Source: Methanobacteriota archaeon (GTDB taxonomy: Archaea; Thermoplasmatota; Thermoplasmata; Methanomassiliicoccales; UBA472). Taken from it: DNA of 34,884 bases. Numbering within the stretch: the stretch's first letter is position 1; every line of letters begins with the position of its first letter. Both the position numbers and the translations under genes were made by a program. The stretch lies in contig JAJFUT010000028.1 of the NCBI GenBank assembly GCA_021372315.1, positions 1 through 34,884 on the forward strand, given 5' to 3'. The notes under the pieces were generated by a model. It did not search any database. It saw only the letters and a list, made by a program, of their open reading frames with translations, and was not told where the DNA came from. This document shows, one piece after another, positions 3,575 to 15,713 of this stretch.

Positions 3575-3586
3575 ATATATATATAA
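3575..3586 (+). promoter_or_regulatory. TATA box of the sensory operon
   Basis: A run ATATATATATAA lies 27-38 bases upstream of ATG 3613, following about 170 bases without a gene. No clear Shine-Dalgarno precedes the ATG, which fits a leaderless transcript. Confidence 0.6.
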
Positions 3587-3612
3587 CAAACAGCGGCCAT
3601 TTATTCAATGAT

Positions 3613-5550
3613 ATGAGCATCCGATGGGTCGTCATTTTGCAGTATCTATTGGTCATATTACTGGTAACGATACTCATCGGTGGCGTCCTCCCAACTACCT
3701 TGCGGGAGGGCCAGATAAATAAGATCGAGGACAATTCCGAGGAGAACATCAGGCATGTGAACCTCGCCATGACCAGTTTCGTCACGGGGGCCATGGATGA
3801 CGTATATGGCCTAACATTGAACGATGAGGTCCGGGTCAGGGACGACCTCAACTTCACCAATTTCTTAAACGCCTCTGAGGACACGTTCGTGTACAACTAC
3901 ACCGAACAGGAACTGAAGATTATCAGCATCCTGAGAGGTTACCAGACATCGCATGAATACGTGAACTCGGTCTACATGGGCAGGGAGAACGGTGCTTTCG
4001 TCCGTTCATATCCAAGAACACTGCCCACACAATACGACCCCAGGCAACGTCCCTGGTACGAGTTGGCCTTGGAGCACCCGGGCGAGGTGGTGATCACGGA
4101 CCCGTACCGTTCAGTTACGAACAACGACGTGAACATCGGGATCGTCACGGCGCTCCTTGATGAAAATGGAACGGTATACGGTGTCGTGGGGGCGGACATA
4201 ACCCTCGTCAGCCTGACCGATTATATATCATCCGTCGGCGAAGTGAGCGGCGACGAGATGATACTTGTCGACAATCACGGGATCGTACTCGCCACGAGGG
4301 ACCCGACCATCTTGAACGAAAATGTCAGCAAATTGCTCGGAGGAGAGACATCGGACTTCATCAACACGAGTGATGGGACCATCGAGACAGACGATTCGTA
4401 CATGGTATACTACACCTCCCCCGAACTTGGATGGAAGATAGGCACGTTCATTCCATTCGAGACGGTCGACCGAGAGATCAACTCGGCGATACTGGACATC
4501 TTGCTCATCGTCGTCTTCGCTCTCGTCCTTCTCAGCGCGATCACCCTCGCCTCGCTGAATTTCTCTGTGATGAGACCTCTATCCCATCTCACGAACGTCA
4601 GCCGCAAGATATCTGAGACCGGGGACCTGGAACACGTGGTCGAGATCAAGGACCCTAAGAGCACCGGCGAGATCGAGGACCTAAGCAAATCCTTCAAATC
4701 AATGGTCGGGACCATACGAGCGGAGAAGGGAGCGAGGGAGCAGGCTATCAAGGAGCTCGAATCATACCGCGACCATCTCGAGGAGCTGGTGTCGGCCAGA
4801 ACGAGCGAGCTGGAGATAGCGAAGGAGGCGGCCGAGGCGGCGGATCGGATCAAGTCAGCCTTCCTGGCCACGATGTCCCATGAGCTCCGCACACCCCTCA
4901 ATTCCATAATCGGTTTCTCAAGCATATTGCTACAGGATATGGCCGGTCCGCTCAACGATGAGCAGAGGAAGCAGCTGGGAATGGTCGCCGACAGCTCGGA
5001 ACATCTGCTAGCCCTCATCAACGACGTGCTCGACATCTCAAAGATCGAGGCAGGCCAGATGAACTTGTCGAAATCACCGTTCGATCTTCCGACATCGATC
5101 AACAAGGTCGTCGGGATCGCCAGGCCCATCGCCAAAAAGAAGAACCTTGACATCGAGGTCGATATCGCCCCCGGGATCGGAACGTACTATAACGATTCAC
5201 GACGCCTGGAGCAGGTCATCCTGAACCTCTTGTCGAACGCTATAAAGTTCACGGACAAAGGCCTCGTCCGGATCGTATGTAGGCAAGATGCTAAGGACCT
5301 CACGATCAAGATCATCGACACTGGGATCGGGATAAAGCAATCCGATATCGAACATCTTTTCAAGCCTTTCAGTCAGTTGGACAGCGGCCTTACCCGTCAA
5401 TATGAAGGTACCGGGCTCGGACTCTCGATCTGCATGAAACTGGTCGTCCTGATGGGAGGTTCGATAGATGTGGAGAGCGAGCTTGGCAAGGGCAGCACAT
5501 TCATCGTCAGGATACCCGTCTCCGTGGACGAGGACCAAGTAACACGATGA
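3613..5550 (+). CDS. Membrane sensor histidine kinase (dCACHE-HAMP-HisKA-HATPase)
   Basis: 645 residues. TM helix 1 is at about 5-27. The extracytoplasmic region at about 30-285 carries the dCACHE-type YDPRQRPWYELA signature near 141-152. TM2 is at about 292-315, then HAMP (about 315-368) and a coiled coil (about 370-412). The HisKA motif SHELRTPLN has phospho-acceptor H423. The ATPase domain shows an N-box (LLSNAIKF, about 539-546), G1 box DTGIGI (569-574) and G2 box GTGLGLSI (599-606). All catalytic elements are present, so it should autophosphorylate in response to a small external ligand; the ligand is unknown. It is the first gene of a four-gene operon with 19 bases to the next gene, and the only complete kinase in it. 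Confidence 0.93.
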   Translation: MSIRWVVILQYLLVILLVTILIGGVLPTTLREGQINKIEDNSEENIRHVNLAMTSFVTGAMDDVYGLTLNDEVRVRDDLNFTNFLNASEDTFVYNYTEQELKIISILRGYQTSHEYVNSVYMGRENGAFVRSYPRTLPTQYDPRQRPWYELALEHPGEVVITDPYRSVTNNDVNIGIVTALLDENGTVYGVVGADITLVSLTDYISSVGEVSGDEMILVDNHGIVLATRDPTILNENVSKLLGGETSDFINTSDGTIETDDSYMVYYTSPELGWKIGTFIPFETVDREINSAILDILLIVVFALVLLSAITLASLNFSVMRPLSHLTNVSRKISETGDLEHVVEIKDPKSTGEIEDLSKSFKSMVGTIRAEKGAREQAIKELESYRDHLEELVSARTSELEIAKEAAEAADRIKSAFLATMSHELRTPLNSIIGFSSILLQDMAGPLNDEQRKQLGMVADSSEHLLALINDVLDISKIEAGQMNLSKSPFDLPTSINKVVGIARPIAKKKNLDIEVDIAPGIGTYYNDSRRLEQVILNLLSNAIKFTDKGLVRIVCRQDAKDLTIKIIDTGIGIKQSDIEHLFKPFSQLDSGLTRQYEGTGLGLSICMKLVVLMGGSIDVESELGKGSTFIVRIPVSVDEDQVTR

Positions 5551-5569
5551 TCAGAAGAACGATTGAGGG

Positions 5570-5983
5570 ATGAACATGGACGAAAGTGGAGGAAAAAGAT
5601 CGGTGACGGTCCTCTATATCGAAGATAATGAACAGAATTTCTATCTCGTTGACTTCATTCTCGCATCTAAAGGATTCAAGGTCGTCAGGGCACATGATGG
5701 GATTGAAGGGTTGAACCTTGTGTCGGATGTCAGACCCGATCTGATCCTTCTGGACATCCAGCTTCCTGGAATGGACGGTTACGCCGTAGCGCGCGAGCTG
5801 AGGAAGAAGGTCGAGCTCGAGAAAATCCCGATCATTGCATTGACATCCTATGCCATGGAAGAAGATCGGGAGAAGGCCATGTCCGCGGGGTGTACGGACC
5901 ACATTGAAAAACCGATAAACCCAAAGATGTTCTTCGAGAGGATCAACAAACACATAATCATGCTAAACGAAGGAGGGCATTGA
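5570..5983 (+). CDS. Single-domain CheY-like response regulator
   Basis: 137 residues, essentially one receiver domain. The acidic pair is E18/D19 in YIEDN, the phospho-acceptor is D62 in LLDIQLPGMDG, the switch Thr is T92 and the conserved Lys K114 in EKP. There is no output domain. Position directly after the kinase makes it the probable first phosphate acceptor. Its stop TGA (5981-5983) lies 2 bases before the next ATG, and an AGGAGGG (5971-5977) for that gene is inside its 3' end. ATG 5576 is an alternative start. Confidence 0.9.
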   Translation: MNMDESGGKRSVTVLYIEDNEQNFYLVDFILASKGFKVVRAHDGIEGLNLVSDVRPDLILLDIQLPGMDGYAVARELRKKVELEKIPIIALTSYAMEEDREKAMSAGCTDHIEKPINPKMFFERINKHIIMLNEGGH

Positions 5984-5985
5984 AG

Positions 5986-7143
5986 ATGACCAAGGTCCTC
6001 GTCGTGGATGATAATCCACAGAACATATACCTGCTCGAGACGATACTGAAATCCAAAGGGTTCGATGTCGCATCGGCAACGAACGGGGCAGAGGCGTTGG
6101 ACTCAGCGAGGATCGACCCTCCTGATCTCATCATCTCAGACATACTCATGCCGGTGATGGACGGATTCAAGCTGTGTCGCCAATGGAAAATCGATGGCAA
6201 GCTCAAACACATACCGTTCATATTCTACACGGCGGAATACACCGATCCAAAGGCAGAGAAGTTCGCCTCGGACCTCGGCGCCGAGAGGTTCGTGATCAAG
6301 CCACAGAAGCCGGACGAGCTGATCCGGATCATCCGCGAGGTGCTGGACGAGTCTATGAAGAATAGAGCGGGTCCTTCGGATGAACGATCCGAGTCAGATG
6401 TCGAGGTCCTGCAGGTCTACAACGACGTGCTCTTCCGCAAGCTGGAGAACAAGGTGAAAGAGCTCGAGGCGGATATCTCCGAACGTAAAAAGACCGAACG
6501 GGCGTTGCGAGAGAGCGAGGAGCGGTTCAGAAAGGTGTTCGAGAGCGGGACCGTCGGCATAGCGCTTTACAGCCCAGAGATCAGGATTTTGCAGATAAAT
6601 GAAGGGTTCTGTAAGATGCTGGGATACGTGGAGGGGGAGCTGGTCGGCAAGAACATGATCGATTTCACGCATGAGGATTACAAGGACCTGACGGCGCGGT
6701 CCATCGAACGGTTGAGGGCTGGAGAGCGATTCTCTGATTCGGTCGAAAAACAGTATATCAGGAAGGATGGTTCGATCCTTTGGGCGATGATCAAGATATC
6801 GACGATCCTCGATGCGGACGGCAGAATAATCTTCTTCATCGTCTTCGCAAACGACATAACGGAGCAGAAGAAATTGGAAGAAGCAAGGAAGAAGGCGTTG
6901 CGCCAGATCGAAAGCAACCTCGAGCAGCTCGCCACGCTGAACGATGAGATCCGAAATCCCTTAGCGATAATCGTCGCCAGGCTGTCGCTGGAGGATAGGA
7001 ATAGGTCCACAGAGCAGATGATCCGAGCCGTGCAGGCGATCGACAGCATCGTGAATCGGTTGGACCAGGGATGGGCGGAGTCCGCTAAGGTCCGCGAGTT
7101 CTTAGAGAGGAACAATCAGATATCAGGGAGGGAGATAACTTGA
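5986..7143 (+). CDS. REC-PAS protein with HisKA-like dimerisation segment lacking the phospho-His and an ATPase domain
   Basis: 385 residues. The receiver domain (about 1-118) has D8/D9, phospho-acceptor D52 in SDILMPVMDG, and a KP motif. A helical linker (about 140-180) leads to a PAS/PAC domain (about 175-295, with ENITEQKK-type end DITEQKKLEE). The last 85 residues look like a HisKA helix pair, but the H-box reads NDEIRNPL at 319-326. The residue aligned with the phospho-His of SHELRNPL is D320, and no ATPase domain follows. It probably senses a small molecule or redox state through PAS and scaffolds the operon's relay rather than acting as a kinase. ATG 5986 is preferred because AGGAGGG is 8 bases ahead; a TTG at 5980 is too close to that site. 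Confidence 0.85.
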   Translation: MTKVLVVDDNPQNIYLLETILKSKGFDVASATNGAEALDSARIDPPDLIISDILMPVMDGFKLCRQWKIDGKLKHIPFIFYTAEYTDPKAEKFASDLGAERFVIKPQKPDELIRIIREVLDESMKNRAGPSDERSESDVEVLQVYNDVLFRKLENKVKELEADISERKKTERALRESEERFRKVFESGTVGIALYSPEIRILQINEGFCKMLGYVEGELVGKNMIDFTHEDYKDLTARSIERLRAGERFSDSVEKQYIRKDGSILWAMIKISTILDADGRIIFFIVFANDITEQKKLEEARKKALRQIESNLEQLATLNDEIRNPLAIIVARLSLEDRNRSTEQMIRAVQAIDSIVNRLDQGWAESAKVREFLERNNQISGREIT

Positions 7144-7730
7144 GCAAAGTGCTATGCGTCGATGACAATGTCGATCTGGTAGAGGTGCTGACCGAGATGC
7201 TTACCTCGCTGATGTTCGAGCCTTACACCGTGCTAGGGGGCAAGGAGTGCATCGATCTATTGAATGGCGGCTCCTTCAAGCCTGACATAATCCTACTCGA
7301 CATCATGATGTCGCCTATGGATGGCTGGACGACGCTGAGGAACATCAGGGGCGATCCTAGATATGACAAGATCCCGGTCATGATGCTGACGGGAAAATAC
7401 CCGACGATGGCCGAGGTCAACGAATATGTAACTCTTTTCGAAGGCTACCTCATGAAACCCTTCGCCCTTGGATTCCTATCGTCCGAGATCAATAAGGTAT
7501 TGTCCAACGTGAAGAAGAGGGAAGAGATCATCGATGACGCAAGGTCAAAGGGCGCGGATGAGCTGATGTTGTCCGATTACCGAAAGCTCTCATCGACAGG
7601 GTGCCTCCTTAGCCAGTTCGAGACGATCATAACCGATGGAACGTTCACTAAGGAGCATTTCGTCGAGCTGGACGAACGTTTTGAGAACATCGTGAAAGAG
7701 CTCAAGGAAATAAAATCGATACCAGAATAA
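7140..7730 (+). CDS. Response regulator with helical C-terminal extension
   Basis: 196 residues. The receiver domain is at about 1-120 with D8/D9, phospho-acceptor D54 in LLDIMMSPMDG, T84 and K106 (LMKPF). The remaining 75 residues are charged and predicted helical, without a recognisable DNA-binding or enzymatic motif. The start is TTG 7140, overlapping the previous stop (TTGA) and preceded by AGGGAGGGAG (7125-7134), so it is translationally coupled. It is the last gene of the sensory operon and is followed by a strong terminator hairpin. The tail could bind a partner protein; its role is unknown. Confidence 0.87.
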   Translation: MSKVLCVDDNVDLVEVLTEMLTSLMFEPYTVLGGKECIDLLNGGSFKPDIILLDIMMSPMDGWTTLRNIRGDPRYDKIPVMMLTGKYPTMAEVNEYVTLFEGYLMKPFALGFLSSEINKVLSNVKKREEIIDDARSKGADELMLSDYRKLSSTGCLLSQFETIITDGTFTKEHFVELDERFENIVKELKEIKSIPE

Positions 7731-7741
7731 ATGGTAAGAAC

Positions 7742-7766
7742 GGGCATCGAAGGATGCCCTTTGTTT
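7742..7766 (+). terminator. Terminator of the sensory operon
   Basis: Perfect stem GGGCATC (7742-7748) / GATGCCC (7753-7759) with loop GAAG, followed by TTTGTTT (7760-7766). It starts 12 bases after the last stop codon of the operon and ends two bases before the convergent ribH stop. Confidence 0.75.
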
Positions 7767-7768
7767 CA

Positions 7769-8182
7769 TCACTGCGCGAGCTTCTTTAGCATCTTGACGA
7801 CGCTCTCGACCGCATCGCGGCCTTTGTCGATGCGGTCCTCGGCCTGAAGCCTGGTCATTCCAGGTCCGGTGATGCCTAACGAAACGGGCTTGTTGTATTC
7901 GACAGACAGGTCGGTGATCTTTCTCGCCGCGTTCGTGATGACGATATCGTCGTGCTCTGTCTCACCCTCGATGACGCATCCCAGTGTGACGACGCCGTCT
8001 ATGGACTTGTCCATGCACATCCTCTTCACCGCTAGGGGCATGTCGAAGACTCCTGGCACGGTAATGGTCTTCGAGATGTTGACCTCGAGGAACTCCGCAT
8101 GAGCCTTCGCCCTTTCCAGCATCATCGATGTTATGTCGAAGTTGAACTCTGACACTACTATCCCAATGTTGTATTTCTTCAT
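7769..8182 (-). CDS. ribH: 6,7-dimethyl-8-ribityllumazine synthase
   Basis: 137 residues, standard for the archaeal enzyme. It condenses 5-amino-6-ribitylaminouracil with 3,4-dihydroxybutanone 4-phosphate. Visible family features are the N-terminal IVVSEFN segment, VPGVFDMPLA at about 42-51, and GCVIEGETEHDD at about 68-79, where the family's catalytic His and phosphate-binding residues lie. It is the last gene of the riboflavin operon. ATG 8182 follows the ribC stop by 4 bases with a GGAG/GAGG Shine-Dalgarno. Confidence 0.95.
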   Translation of the reverse strand: MKKYNIGIVVSEFNFDITSMMLERAKAHAEFLEVNISKTITVPGVFDMPLAVKRMCMDKSIDGVVTLGCVIEGETEHDDIVITNAARKITDLSVEYNKPVSLGITGPGMTRLQAEDRIDKGRDAVESVVKMLKKLAQ

Positions 8183-8186
8183 ATCC

Positions 8187-9096
<910 letters not shown>

Positions 9097-9100
<4 letters not shown>

Positions 9101-9804
9101 CTTTTCTTTCCCCAGTCCTTCCAAGCGTCGATCACCTGCTGTCCTTCCAGGAAGCAGAGGTCGTTGCGCTCGGCATAAGCCTTTGCCTTGCTCTTGTCCA
9201 GGGCCTTCCCGTTGTCGCCCATCATCTCGCAGATGGTGGTGGAAGGTACGACCCCGGCCATGACAGCTAGCGCCGTCGTCAGTTCGGTGTGCCCGAACCT
9301 CTTCGTCAGCAAGTTCTTCGTCGCGTTGAGAAGGTGTATGTGTCCAGGCGCCCTGAACGAGTGCCCGAACTCCTCCCTGAGGACCGCTGGGCTCTTACCG
9401 CCGCTGTTCTTGATCAGCTTCGCGAACTCTCTCACGGTCAATGCCCTGTCCACATCAGTGATCCCGGTGAAGGTCTTCCTATGGTTGATCGTTATGCCGA
9501 AGGCTGATTTCGTATCGTACGGTATGTCGTTCGGCACCAATCCGGTTAGGACCGGGTGGTCCTTCGACGCCTCGTTGAATATGTCCGCGAGGAAAGGCAG
9601 CCCCAGAACTTCCACTATGTCGTTGTGCGCCGTGGTGCAGATGAGGCCTCCTGCGTTCTTCCTCATCTCGCGGATGCTCTCCGCCGTGACGAACTCGGAA
9701 GCGATCGCCATGTCGGTCTCGCCCTCGCGATTGTCAAAATCATAAACGAGCACCATCCTACCTTTGCTCATGTCACGAATGGCCTCATCCACGCTGTTTT
9801 TCAT
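9097..9804 (-). CDS. ribB: 3,4-dihydroxy-2-butanone 4-phosphate synthase
   Basis: 235 residues. It converts ribulose 5-phosphate to dihydroxybutanone phosphate and formate. The acidic metal loop NREGETD is at about 25-31, RAPGHIHLL at about 150-158, and HTELTTALAVMAG at about 171-183. It is monofunctional, with no GTP cyclohydrolase II domain, as in archaea. First gene of the minus-strand operon ribB-ribL-ribC-ribH; GGTGG precedes the ATG. No FMN riboswitch-like leader is visible. The archaeal GTP cyclohydrolase and CTP-dependent riboflavin kinase genes are not in this window. Confidence 0.95.
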
Positions 9805-12328: not shown

Positions 12329-13252
12329 TCAAATCCCTTTCCTTTCTTTTATTTCCTCTAGAAGCTCGCAGCCCATGCACTTCCCCTTGCTCGTAGGCTC
12401 GCCGCATCCGCACAGATCGAGCTTCCCCGGCGGGAACGATGAGGATAGGCATGGCCTGATCTGATCATAGCTAGAGACGATGCTATGCTTGGTGCCGGGA
12501 TGTCTGCTCTCCATTGAATCTATCGTTTCCCTGAACTCGTTCCTCAGTGCCTCGGTCGCGTATGGACATTCGTCGTCAGAGAACTCGAGGTCGTTCAGGA
12601 TGGCATAGAGCATCGATTCTCCCTCGGGGACCATCCTCAACGGTTCCAAACGAGGAACGAGGCCAGGCTGTACCTTCGTGTGCGGTCCGAGGCGGGCGAG
12701 CCTCTCGACGTCCCCCCTCATGAAGTTCATCAGGACGGATTGGGCGGTGTCATCGAGGTTATGTCCCGTGGCGAGGACTCCAGCGCCGATGTCCCTGGCC
12801 TTCTGGTTCAGACATCTCCTCCTGAAGACGCCGCAGTACGAGCAGGCGGTCCGGTCGCCTGAAAAAGGCACGACATCGTCGAGGTCGGTCCCGATCACTT
12901 CGTTGAAGGTGATCACGTGGTGTGTGATCCCGAGCCTCGCTGCCTGCGCCTTGGCCGAAGGCAGGGTACCTGCCCTGTACCCCTTGATCCCCTCATCGAC
13001 GGTGATCGCCTCGATATTGACGTCCCTTCTCTCCCCAAGTATCTTGACCAGAAGCTCGAGCGTGACCGCGCTGTCCTTGCCTCCAGACGTTCCGACGGCG
13101 ATCTTCAAGGGGCCCTTGATGTCAAGCTGACCTCGAATATCCTTCTTCACCCTCCGTTCAACGTATTCATTGAAATGGGAATGACAGAGATGGGTGCCGT
13201 TGTACCTTATGTACGTTATAGCCTCGGAGAGGCACTTGGAGCACTTGACCAC
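12329..13252 (-). CDS. ncsA: tRNA 2-thiouridine synthase, NcsA/TtuA (CTU1) family
   Basis: 307 residues. PP-loop ATPase that activates U34 or U54 of tRNA for 2-thiolation, with sulfur from a ubiquitin-like carrier. It has an N-terminal zinc site (C4, C7, C23, H26), PP-loop TSGGKDS at 55-61, and C137/C140 in ACSYCGVFRR plus C229 in DDECPYA. The 92-residue spacing between C140's cluster partner C137 and C229 matches the [4Fe-4S] site of TtuA enzymes. A C-terminal zinc ribbon follows (CGCGEPTSKGKCMGC). The start is GTG 13252, without a Shine-Dalgarno but with a TATA box 22-28 bases upstream, hence probably leaderless. Divergent from rfcS. Confidence 0.92.
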   Translation of the reverse strand: MVKCSKCLSEAITYIRYNGTHLCHSHFNEYVERRVKKDIRGQLDIKGPLKIAVGTSGGKDSAVTLELLVKILGERRDVNIEAITVDEGIKGYRAGTLPSAKAQAARLGITHHVITFNEVIGTDLDDVVPFSGDRTACSYCGVFRRRCLNQKARDIGAGVLATGHNLDDTAQSVLMNFMRGDVERLARLGPHTKVQPGLVPRLEPLRMVPEGESMLYAILNDLEFSDDECPYATEALRNEFRETIDSMESRHPGTKHSIVSSYDQIRPCLSSSFPPGKLDLCGCGEPTSKGKCMGCELLEEIKERKGI

Positions 13253-13273
13253 GTTCGATGATTGTGAAGGCCG

Positions 13274-13280
13274 ATATTAT
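13274..13280 (-). promoter_or_regulatory. TATA box for ncsA
   Basis: Minus-strand ATAATAT lies 22-28 bases upstream of the GTG start at 13252. It supports that start in the absence of a Shine-Dalgarno. Confidence 0.45.
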
Positions 13281-13364
13281 GATTATCCCCCTCCCTCGGC
13301 GTCAGAAAAGACGCGCGAGTCATCAATTGATTCCATCATCGGTCTTCGTCAGCCCGTCAGAAAA

Positions 13365-13371
13365 GTATATT
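13365..13371 (+). promoter_or_regulatory. TATA-like box for rfcS
   Basis: GTATATT lies 36-42 bases upstream of ATG 13407. A short leader containing GGTTGGAG would result. Confidence 0.4.
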
Positions 13372-13406
13372 GCCAATACCCCCATTAATCACGCAGGTTG
13401 GAGCGA

Positions 13407-14372
13407 ATGCAAGAGATTTGGATCGAGAAGTACAGGCCGAAGAAGCTGGACGACGTCATCGGTCAGAACGACATCGTGGACCGTCTCAAGTCATACGCTC
13501 GTTCCGGGAACCTTCCGCACCTGATGTTCGCAGGTCCCGCTGGTACAGGAAAGACGACCTCCGCCCTTGCATTGGCCAGGGAGCTATACAAGGATGCGTG
13601 GAGGGACAACTTTGTCGAGCTAAACGCCTCCGATGAGAGGGGGATCGATGTCGTCAGGGGCAAGATAAAGGAGTTCGCGAGGACGCAGCCTCTCGGAGGG
13701 GCGGCCTTCAAGATAATCTTCCTGGACGAGGCAGACGCCCTCACATCCGATGCTCAGGCCGCGTTGAGGAGGACGATGGAGAGGTACAGCTCCAACTGCC
13801 GCTTCATCCTCTCGTGCAACTACGCCTCCAAGATAATAGAGCCGATCCAATCGAGATGCGCCGTGTTCCGGTTCAGGCCCGTCAAGTCCGAGGACGTCAA
13901 GAGGTATCTGAAGAAGATAGCCGACAACGAGGGCATCAATGTCACGGAGGACGCGCTGGACGCCCTGGTCCACGTCGGAGAGGGTGACATGAGGAAGACC
14001 GTGAACTCGCTCCAGGTCGCCGCCGCGGCGGAGAAGGACATCGACCTGGACGTCGTCTACCAGACGAGCGGGAACGCCAGGCCGGATGAGGTCGTGAAGA
14101 TGCTGGAGACGGCGCTGCATGGCAACTTCGTCGAGGCTAGGGCACTGCTCGACGAGATCATGCTCAGCTATGGCCTCAGCGGCTCCGACATCATCAAGCA
14201 GGTGCACAAGAGCTTCTTCGACATCGACATACCAGACATCGACAAGGTGAAGCTGATCGACAAGACCGGGGAGATCGAGTTCAGGATCGTGGAGGGCAGC
14301 AACGAGAGGATACAGTTGGAATCCCTCCTCGCATACCTTGTGCTCGTCGGCGACCGCAGGGAAGGGGTCTAA
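13407..14372 (+). CDS. rfcS: Replication factor C small subunit
   Basis: 321 residues, typical of the archaeal small subunit. AAA+ clamp loader ATPase that opens the PCNA ring at primer-template junctions. The order is the N-terminal IEKYRPKKLDDVIGQ, Walker A GPAGTGKTT at about 44-52, Walker B FLDEADAL, sensor 1 SCNYASK, and SRC arginine-finger motif QSRCAVFRF. A C-terminal collar domain follows. ATG 13407 is preferred over TTG 13398 because family members begin a few residues before IEKYRPK. The large subunit rfcL is not in this window. Confidence 0.95.
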   Translation: MQEIWIEKYRPKKLDDVIGQNDIVDRLKSYARSGNLPHLMFAGPAGTGKTTSALALARELYKDAWRDNFVELNASDERGIDVVRGKIKEFARTQPLGGAAFKIIFLDEADALTSDAQAALRRTMERYSSNCRFILSCNYASKIIEPIQSRCAVFRFRPVKSEDVKRYLKKIADNEGINVTEDALDALVHVGEGDMRKTVNSLQVAAAAEKDIDLDVVYQTSGNARPDEVVKMLETALHGNFVEARALLDEIMLSYGLSGSDIIKQVHKSFFDIDIPDIDKVKLIDKTGEIEFRIVEGSNERIQLESLLAYLVLVGDRREGV

Positions 14373-14711: not shown

Positions 14712-15713
14712 GTGGTGGCTCCACTGAAGAAGGTTCTGATAGTTGACGACAATCAGGCGATCACAGAGATCGTCACGGAGATAATCACCACTGCGGGATA
14801 TGAATCGATATCCGCCGCCGGAGGCAGGGAGGCCTTGGTGAAGGTCGAATCTGAGAGCCCAGACCTCATTCTGCTCGACGTCAACATGCCAGACATCGAT
14901 GGCTATACTCTCCTGAGGCAACTGAAGGAGAAGGGCATGATCGGGAAGATCAAGATCCTGATGCTCACGTCCGCCATCGAGGTCGACACCGACATATTCG
15001 GACTTCAGGACGTGATAAGCGGCTATATACGCAAGCCGTTCAACAACGCAGACCTCGAGGCAAGGCTCAGAGAGGCCTTGAACGAGCCGGCCCCGATCCG
15101 CATACCATCCGAGCCCGAGGCCAAGGTGAGGAAGAAGAGCGGGTTTTCCAAGCTGTTCAGGAAGGAGGAGGAAGAGATCGAGCCCTTCGACTCGATGGAG
15201 ACAGCAAGGCGCTCGAAGAAGGAGTACGACCTCAAGAAGGGGTATGCCTACCTCGTAAAGGAGGCGAAGCCGAAGAAGTCCTTCGAGATATTCGTGGACC
15301 AGGTCACTCATGACATACAGGGGCTGTGCGTCACAAGGCAGCACCCGTCCGTCGTGAGGAAGGACTGGGGGCTCGAGAAGACCCCTATCATATGGCTCAC
15401 GAACCAGCTCGGCAAGGTCTACATCAACCCGACGAACATCGGCATCCTCGGCGAGACGATCACACGTTTCGTGGAGAAGTCCGGGGACTCTGTAGTCATC
15501 ATCGATGGCATCGAGTTCCTCATCATCAACAACGACTTCGAGAAGGTCCTCCGCATGCTTCACAACATCACAGACGCGGCGATGGAGAACCGCGCGAGGC
15601 TCATCATATCCATAGACCCGAGGACGCTCCAGGTCAGGGAGCTAGCCCTCCTCGAAAGGAACATGGAGATAATCGAGGGGCTGGCAGGTCCGGAGCCACG
15701 GCAGAACAAATGA
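14712..15713 (+). CDS. Response regulator receiver fused to DUF835 domain
   Basis: 333 residues. The receiver domain is at about 5-122, with D12/D13, phospho-acceptor D56 in LLDVNMPDIDG, a Thr after LML and the KPF motif. A charged linker (about 123-170, rich in Lys/Glu) leads to a DUF835 domain (about 175-325). That domain is recognised from GYAYLVKE, the TRQHP segment, a WLTNQ strand, VIIDGIEFLI and the ISIDPRTL segment. DUF835 is an archaeal domain of unknown function, often coupled to signalling modules. The start is GTG 14712 or GTG 14715; no strong Shine-Dalgarno is seen. No kinase is adjacent, so it is an orphan regulator whose phosphodonor could be the kinase at 3613-5550 (speculative). 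Confidence 0.85.
   Translation: MVAPLKKVLIVDDNQAITEIVTEIITTAGYESISAAGGREALVKVESESPDLILLDVNMPDIDGYTLLRQLKEKGMIGKIKILMLTSAIEVDTDIFGLQDVISGYIRKPFNNADLEARLREALNEPAPIRIPSEPEAKVRKKSGFSKLFRKEEEEIEPFDSMETARRSKKEYDLKKGYAYLVKEAKPKKSFEIFVDQVTHDIQGLCVTRQHPSVVRKDWGLEKTPIIWLTNQLGKVYINPTNIGILGETITRFVEKSGDSVVIIDGIEFLIINNDFEKVLRMLHNITDAAMENRARLIISIDPRTLQVRELALLERNMEIIEGLAGPEPRQNK

Follow-up and report, generated by a model that had tools for sequence, protein, structure and literature searches.

The window analysed here is the whole of a 34,884-nucleotide stretch of DNA (contig JAJFUT010000028.1, positions 1 to 34,884 of the forward strand, assembly GCA_021372315.1) from an archaeon of the order Methanomassiliicoccales, whose genome comprises 1.75 Mb in 127 contigs. 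The system in question is a four-gene sensory operon in this window, which encodes a histidine kinase, three receivers (REC) and, within one of the receiver proteins, a kinase-like module that has an aspartate where the phospho-accepting histidine should be. The four open reading frames are co-directional and nearly contiguous (3613-5550, 5570-5983, 5980/5986-7143 and 7140-7730), and the features recognized at the locus are the following.

3575-3586, + strand: TATA-like stretch TATATATATAAC, a possible promoter, predicted by reading of the sequence
3613-5550, + strand: gene 1, membrane sensor histidine kinase (Pfam dCache_1-HAMP-HisKA-HATPase_c, all above cut-off)
5570-5983, + strand: gene 2, stand-alone CheY-like receiver (Response_reg, 88 bits)
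5986-7143, + strand: gene 3, REC-coiled coil-PAS-His-less DHp hairpin, without HATPase (Pfam Response_reg and PAS above cut-off)
6877-7131, + strand: C-terminal DHp-like module of gene 3, ATPase-less and His-less (LNDEIRNPL ... LDQGWAESAKVREFL; sub-threshold HisKA match)
7140-7730, + strand: gene 4, divergent REC-MetOD2 protein with REC acceptor D54 (Response_reg; profile-profile match of the tail)
7470-7727, + strand: MetOD2-like helical output domain, gene 4 residues 111-196 (hhalign and local hidden Markov model)
7742-7766, + strand: hairpin GGGCATC-GAAG-GATGCCC-TTTGTTT, a possible terminator, between convergent genes

The reading frames of genes 2 and 3 and of genes 3 and 4 abut or overlap, the start of gene 4 sharing four bases with the stop of gene 3 (TTGA, 7140-7143), and the open reading frames and Pfam matches agree with the four packed genes and the domains given in a preliminary description of this DNA. 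Gene 1 is the complete dCache histidine kinase described there: the phospho-accepting residue is His423 (codon 4879-4881), with a Thr at H+4, the N and G boxes of the HATPase domain are intact (NLLSNA, DTGIG, and GTGLGL), and hydrophobic stretches lie near residues 1-31 and 287-320. The acceptor of gene 2 is D62 (D60 if the start is the ATG at 5576), and its closest solved structure is DivK (PDB 1m5t, E 2e-23). In gene 3, the acceptor is D54 when counted from a TTG start at 5980 and D52 from the ATG at 5986, which lies at the more favourable distance from the AAGGAGG at 5970-5976. The three acceptor aspartates expected earlier (D62, D54 or D52, and D54) are thus all present, and all three receivers keep the DD/ED acidic pair, the Asp, the Thr, and the Lys.

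A single promoter and a terminator had also been proposed to enclose the operon. The TATA-like stretch is present, but no matching element is kept upstream of the operon orthologues; the hairpin and its T-rich tail are likewise present, although terminator-like matches are no commoner than in shuffled sequence (4 found, against 3.3 +/- 2.0 expected). Both elements are plausible as predictions only, neither being demonstrable. Scans for Rfam families and for tRNAs gave no matches in the window.

Co-inheritance of the operon and the tail of gene 4

Of the 147 genomes of the order, four carry strong orthologues of the kinase, and it is exactly these four that also have CheY orthologues; gene 3 is present in them as well (among family members, at the level of the closest match) and gene 4 in three. 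The four-gene order is kept in OWC_0010 and PtaU1.Bin124, at 46-64% identity, and is therefore not a product of chance. Since the window and these two genomes mostly have different neighbouring genes, it is the unit that is conserved and not its place, which bears out the earlier idea of a self-contained, co-inherited unit: far from never occurring together, the operon genes co-occur in two further Methanomassiliicoccales genomes. In the copy in genome G014 (locus L038), the kinase frame contains a TGA and that of gene 3, whose motif is also degraded (RDQMKVAV), a TAG, and gene 4 was not found at this copy. Some members of the order read TAG as pyrrolysine, and the TAG in gene 3 need not be a stop; the signs of decay are the TGA in the kinase frame and the lack of gene 4. 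A broad contig scan with gene 4 returned mostly generic receivers.

None of the four genes had been thought to carry an output domain, and a profile search of the gene 4 tail had been named as the test of that view. The Pfam scan of gene 4 from the window did not reach the MetOD2 model (PF18548); the OWC_0010 orthologue scored 16.2 bits, and a full-length gene 4 relative in a Methanoregulaceae genome (L042) scored 50.8 bits (cut-off 30.6). When three Methanomassiliicoccales gene 4 tails were aligned by hhalign with 45 tails from the order of the Methanoregulaceae relative, the window's own locus being excluded, the score was 44.0, with a probability of 93.6%, as compared to a maximum of 16.2 over 100 column shuffles and 8.2 for the reversed profile. 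The tail from the window alone gave a probability of 81%, and 30 bits with a local MetOD2 model. Judged by these profile comparisons, the gene 4 tail is a divergent MetOD2, an output domain already catalogued in methanogens, which follows the receiver as in REC-MetOD2 response regulators. The output-less operon was consequently rejected, the recognized domain having been found by the very search that had been suggested.

The name MetOD2, for methanogen output domain 2, comes from Galperin et al. (2018; PMC5847659), who describe an uncharacterised domain of four helices, possibly nucleic-acid binding, and report it only from Methanocellales and Methanomicrobiales. Genes of the REC-MetOD2 type were found in 98 of the 120 genomes of the order to which the Methanoregulaceae relative belongs. 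The AlphaFold2 model of gene 4 (predicted local distance difference test, pLDDT, 88) consists of the receiver and a four-helix extension. In a fold search with this model the REC part alone matched well, and the search gives no function for MetOD2, because the matches that reach the tail (PorX and ARR1) have a root-mean-square deviation above 10.

The His-less module of gene 3 and its relatives

Gene 3 has neither the phospho-His nor the CA domain of a canonical histidine kinase. Its architecture is that of REC-PAS-HisKA proteins without HATPase, the HisKA part being sub-threshold though significant (25.0 bits against a Pfam cut-off of 26.9; E 2e-5). In this match SHELRTPL of HisKA aligns with NDEIRNPL of gene 3, which places an Asp at the phospho-His position (codon 6943-6945) and an Asn at H+4 (codon 6955-6957); the designation of gene 3 as a pseudo-kinase, with Asp replacing the phospho-His and no HATPase, is confirmed. 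Against PDB sequences, a profile of the module gave no more than weak DHp matches (ERS1, E 0.6; phytochrome A), so that its membership in the DHp class rests on the Pfam HisKA match and the predicted hairpin; the low-confidence model of gene 3 also aligns partly with LOV-kinase structures. Gene 3 of PtaU1.Bin124 (L041 / L037) has no PAS domain, and the conserved core is therefore the REC plus the DHp module. The genome of the window encodes a second REC-PAS-His-less-DHp protein of 345 amino acids (L126, G000:C7, about 12645-13577), with a relative in another genome (L125, in G011); D and N are kept in both.

Further copies of the module were collected from 12 genomes of the order of the Methanoregulaceae relative, picked for having several REC-MetOD2 genes, a choice for which the expectation for gene pairing given below allows. 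Eleven of these 12 genomes contain the module, 80 times in all, and 83 distinct copies, nearly all from 11 Methanomicrobiales-type genomes, were aligned. The Asp at H+0 and the Asn at H+4 are present in every one (83/83, and 62/62 once filtered to less than 70% identity), while H+1, the position of the kinase-catalytic acid, is among the more variable (rank 53 of 75 columns in conservation) and is a His in 21 of the 83 copies. A relaxed-threshold search of the fetched loci, made as a check on selection bias in this invariance, found no His-bearing copy that falls between strong members of the module class and genuine HisKA domains. With few exceptions the module stands at the C-terminus, and in the 79 copies that could be tested no HATPase comes after it; in L210 and L235, the roughly 165 residues after it resemble, as judged by eye, an RyR-type domain and not an ATPase.

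In the 12 genomes, a REC-MetOD2 gene comes directly after 10 of the 80 module genes on the same strand, against 0.07 expected under uniform placement, and no such pair in another orientation was found. In nearly all the pairs of the fetched loci, which include the three operons described here, the two frames overlap or abut, with a spacing of -5 to +4 bases. The H+1 residue of paired modules is Q, E or S, and His is found there in 0 of 12, as compared to 21 of 71 unpaired modules.

These positions have known roles in HisKA kinases, in which the H+1 acid is needed only for the kinase reaction and the H+4 Thr or Asn only for the phosphatase reaction (Willett and Kirby, PMC3510030); in a His-to-Ala mutant the phosphatase activity is reduced but not lost, and the DxxxQ motif of CheZ and NarX pairs an acid with an amide (PMC3510030). 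The residues expected of a receiver phosphatase, an amide or Thr on the docking helix together with an acid, are thus present throughout the alignment. The pattern suggests that the module shed its kinase features and fixed a phosphatase one, and, given the role of the H+4 residue and the D/N invariance, the simplest reading is that of a sensor-controlled phosphatase for REC-MetOD2. Galperin et al. (2018; PMC5847659) had already raised the possibility that archaeal proteins of the HisKA-only kind act as phosphatases of receivers.

Proposed mechanism and its rivals

We propose, with a probability of about 0.45, that the activating and deactivating arms of this system lie on separate proteins, a kinase and a predicted phosphatase, which converge on the REC-MetOD2 protein. 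The dCache domain of gene 1 would sense an external ligand, upon which His423 would autophosphorylate and the operon receivers would be phosphorylated. The effector would be gene 4, acting through the helical domain homologous to MetOD2. Gene 3, which should be unable to autophosphorylate because Asp replaces His and an ATPase domain is missing, would be a cytosolic REC-PAS sensor with a dimeric DHp hairpin that retains the invariant acid/amide dyad (D-xxx-N) on its receiver-docking helix. As conservation and gene pairing indicate, it may bind the phosphorylated REC-MetOD2 encoded by its overlapping neighbour and hydrolyse the phosphoryl group, at a rate set by phosphorylation of its own REC and by the PAS ligand. 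The DivK-like gene 2 could be a sink or could regulate one of the two DHp proteins allosterically.

A broader extension is more tentative and somewhat doubtful: a large methanogen sensor family may exist in which the kinase core has become a dedicated receiver phosphatase, with an invariant D-xxx-N dyad and with neither phospho-His nor ATPase domain, often encoded in an overlapping pair with REC-MetOD2. Signals would then act by control of dephosphorylation, and phosphorylation would be left to a separate kinase, as in this operon. Such an arrangement would account for the switching-off of archaeal receivers that have no bacterial-type output, and would mean that the kinase and phosphatase functions of one fold are split between proteins. 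REC-PAS-HisKA and HisKA-only proteins are listed as archaeal signalling parts without a studied member or known partners (Galperin et al., 2018; PMC5847659); the gene pairing points to REC-MetOD2 as a partner, and from the invariant D/N dyad follow a candidate activity and two residues suited to mutagenesis.

Several points weigh against the phosphatase. Only about one in eight modules adjoins a REC-MetOD2 gene, the conservation of the RNPL segment could reflect a structural kink, and the AlphaFold2 model of gene 3, built on an alignment of three sequences, reaches a modest confidence (pLDDT 70 on average, and mostly 52-68 across the module). In addition, DivL, a His-less DHp protein, binds phosphorylated DivK without kinase or phosphatase activity (PMC4211667), so that loss of the His does not imply a phosphatase. 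This precedent underlies the main rival, in which the His-less DHp protein would be a sensor of phosphorylation state that binds the phosphorylated REC of gene 2 or of REC-MetOD2 without catalysis and passes the information by dimerisation to the kinase or to another partner. The PAS and DHp parts of gene 3 and the proximity of gene 2 to DivK among solved structures agree with it; however, DivL keeps a CA domain that the gene 3 module does not have, and invariance of D and N at catalytic positions while H+1 drifts exceeds what docking on its own demands, and we consider this rival unlikely.

The preliminary description had offered a phosphorelay, a phosphate sink or a protein-interaction switch, of which the latter two are conceivable for the CheY-like protein. 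That all receivers, MetOD2 included, only bind partners or drain phosphate, in the manner of archaeal REC-only hubs, is quite improbable as an account of the whole operon. REC-only and REC-PAS proteins are indeed the prevailing kinds of archaeal response regulator (PMC5847659), the stand-alone FilR2, to which no function is assigned, is phosphorylated by FilI (PMC3991700), and REC-only proteins of M. acetivorans accept phosphate from a hybrid kinase (PMC11784639), but gene 4, unlike a bare sink, has the conserved C-terminal domain of a widespread family. A four-step phosphorelay through gene 3 would find a kinase, several receivers and a DHp-like domain in the operon, but is highly improbable and was rejected, since the position that would carry the phosphate is Asp in all 83 module copies and Pfam detects no Hpt domain among the operon genes.

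Surroundings of the operon and known systems

Convergent with the operon lies an archaeal riboflavin/FAD cluster (7769-9804, - strand) with genes for lumazine synthase, a second lumazine-synthase-like protein that is probably the archaeal riboflavin synthase, a cytidylyltransferase, and DHBP synthase. A REC-DUF835 response regulator is encoded at 14712-15713 (+ strand) and may be a family-wide core regulator, because 20 of 22 genomes of the family encode a long REC protein that resembles it.

REC-PAS-HisKA proteins, REC-MetOD2 regulators, and kinases co-encoded with stand-alone receivers are already described (PMC5847659, PMC3991700, PMC11784639); for the D-xxx-N module and its pairing with REC-MetOD2, no description was found in the literature searched, which was mostly without subscription papers. 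As in REC-MetOD2 regulators (PF18548), a homologous helical domain follows the REC in gene 4, which differs in falling below the Pfam cut-off and in coming from Methanomassiliicoccales. The methanogen distribution of REC-(PAS)n-HisKA proteins without HATPase of the AF_1472 type, compared here by description only, and of nonenzymatic kinase-like proteins (PMC5847659) fits gene 3; the conserved His of the latter, as defined by Galperin, is an Asp throughout the aligned modules. In the FilI/FilR1/FilR2 system of Methanosaeta harundinacea, a kinase likewise shares its transcript with a stand-alone receiver and has as a further partner a regulator with an output domain, but FilR1 has an ArsR-related DNA-binding domain and the system is without a pseudo-kinase. 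In Caulobacter, DivL and DivK combine, as here, a PAS-DHp protein without phospho-His and a single receiver of the DivK type; DivL differs in keeping its CA domain and in having Tyr where gene 3 has Asp. DivL is not known to form a gene pair with its receiver. Phosphatases of the CheZ, CheX and NarX types carry an acid and amide dyad on or near the receiver-docking helix, D-xxx-Q in CheZ and NarX and putatively D-xxx-N here, and gene 3 would differ from them in having Asn instead of Gln, in its HisKA-derived hairpin, and in the placement of the dyad at H+0 and H+4.

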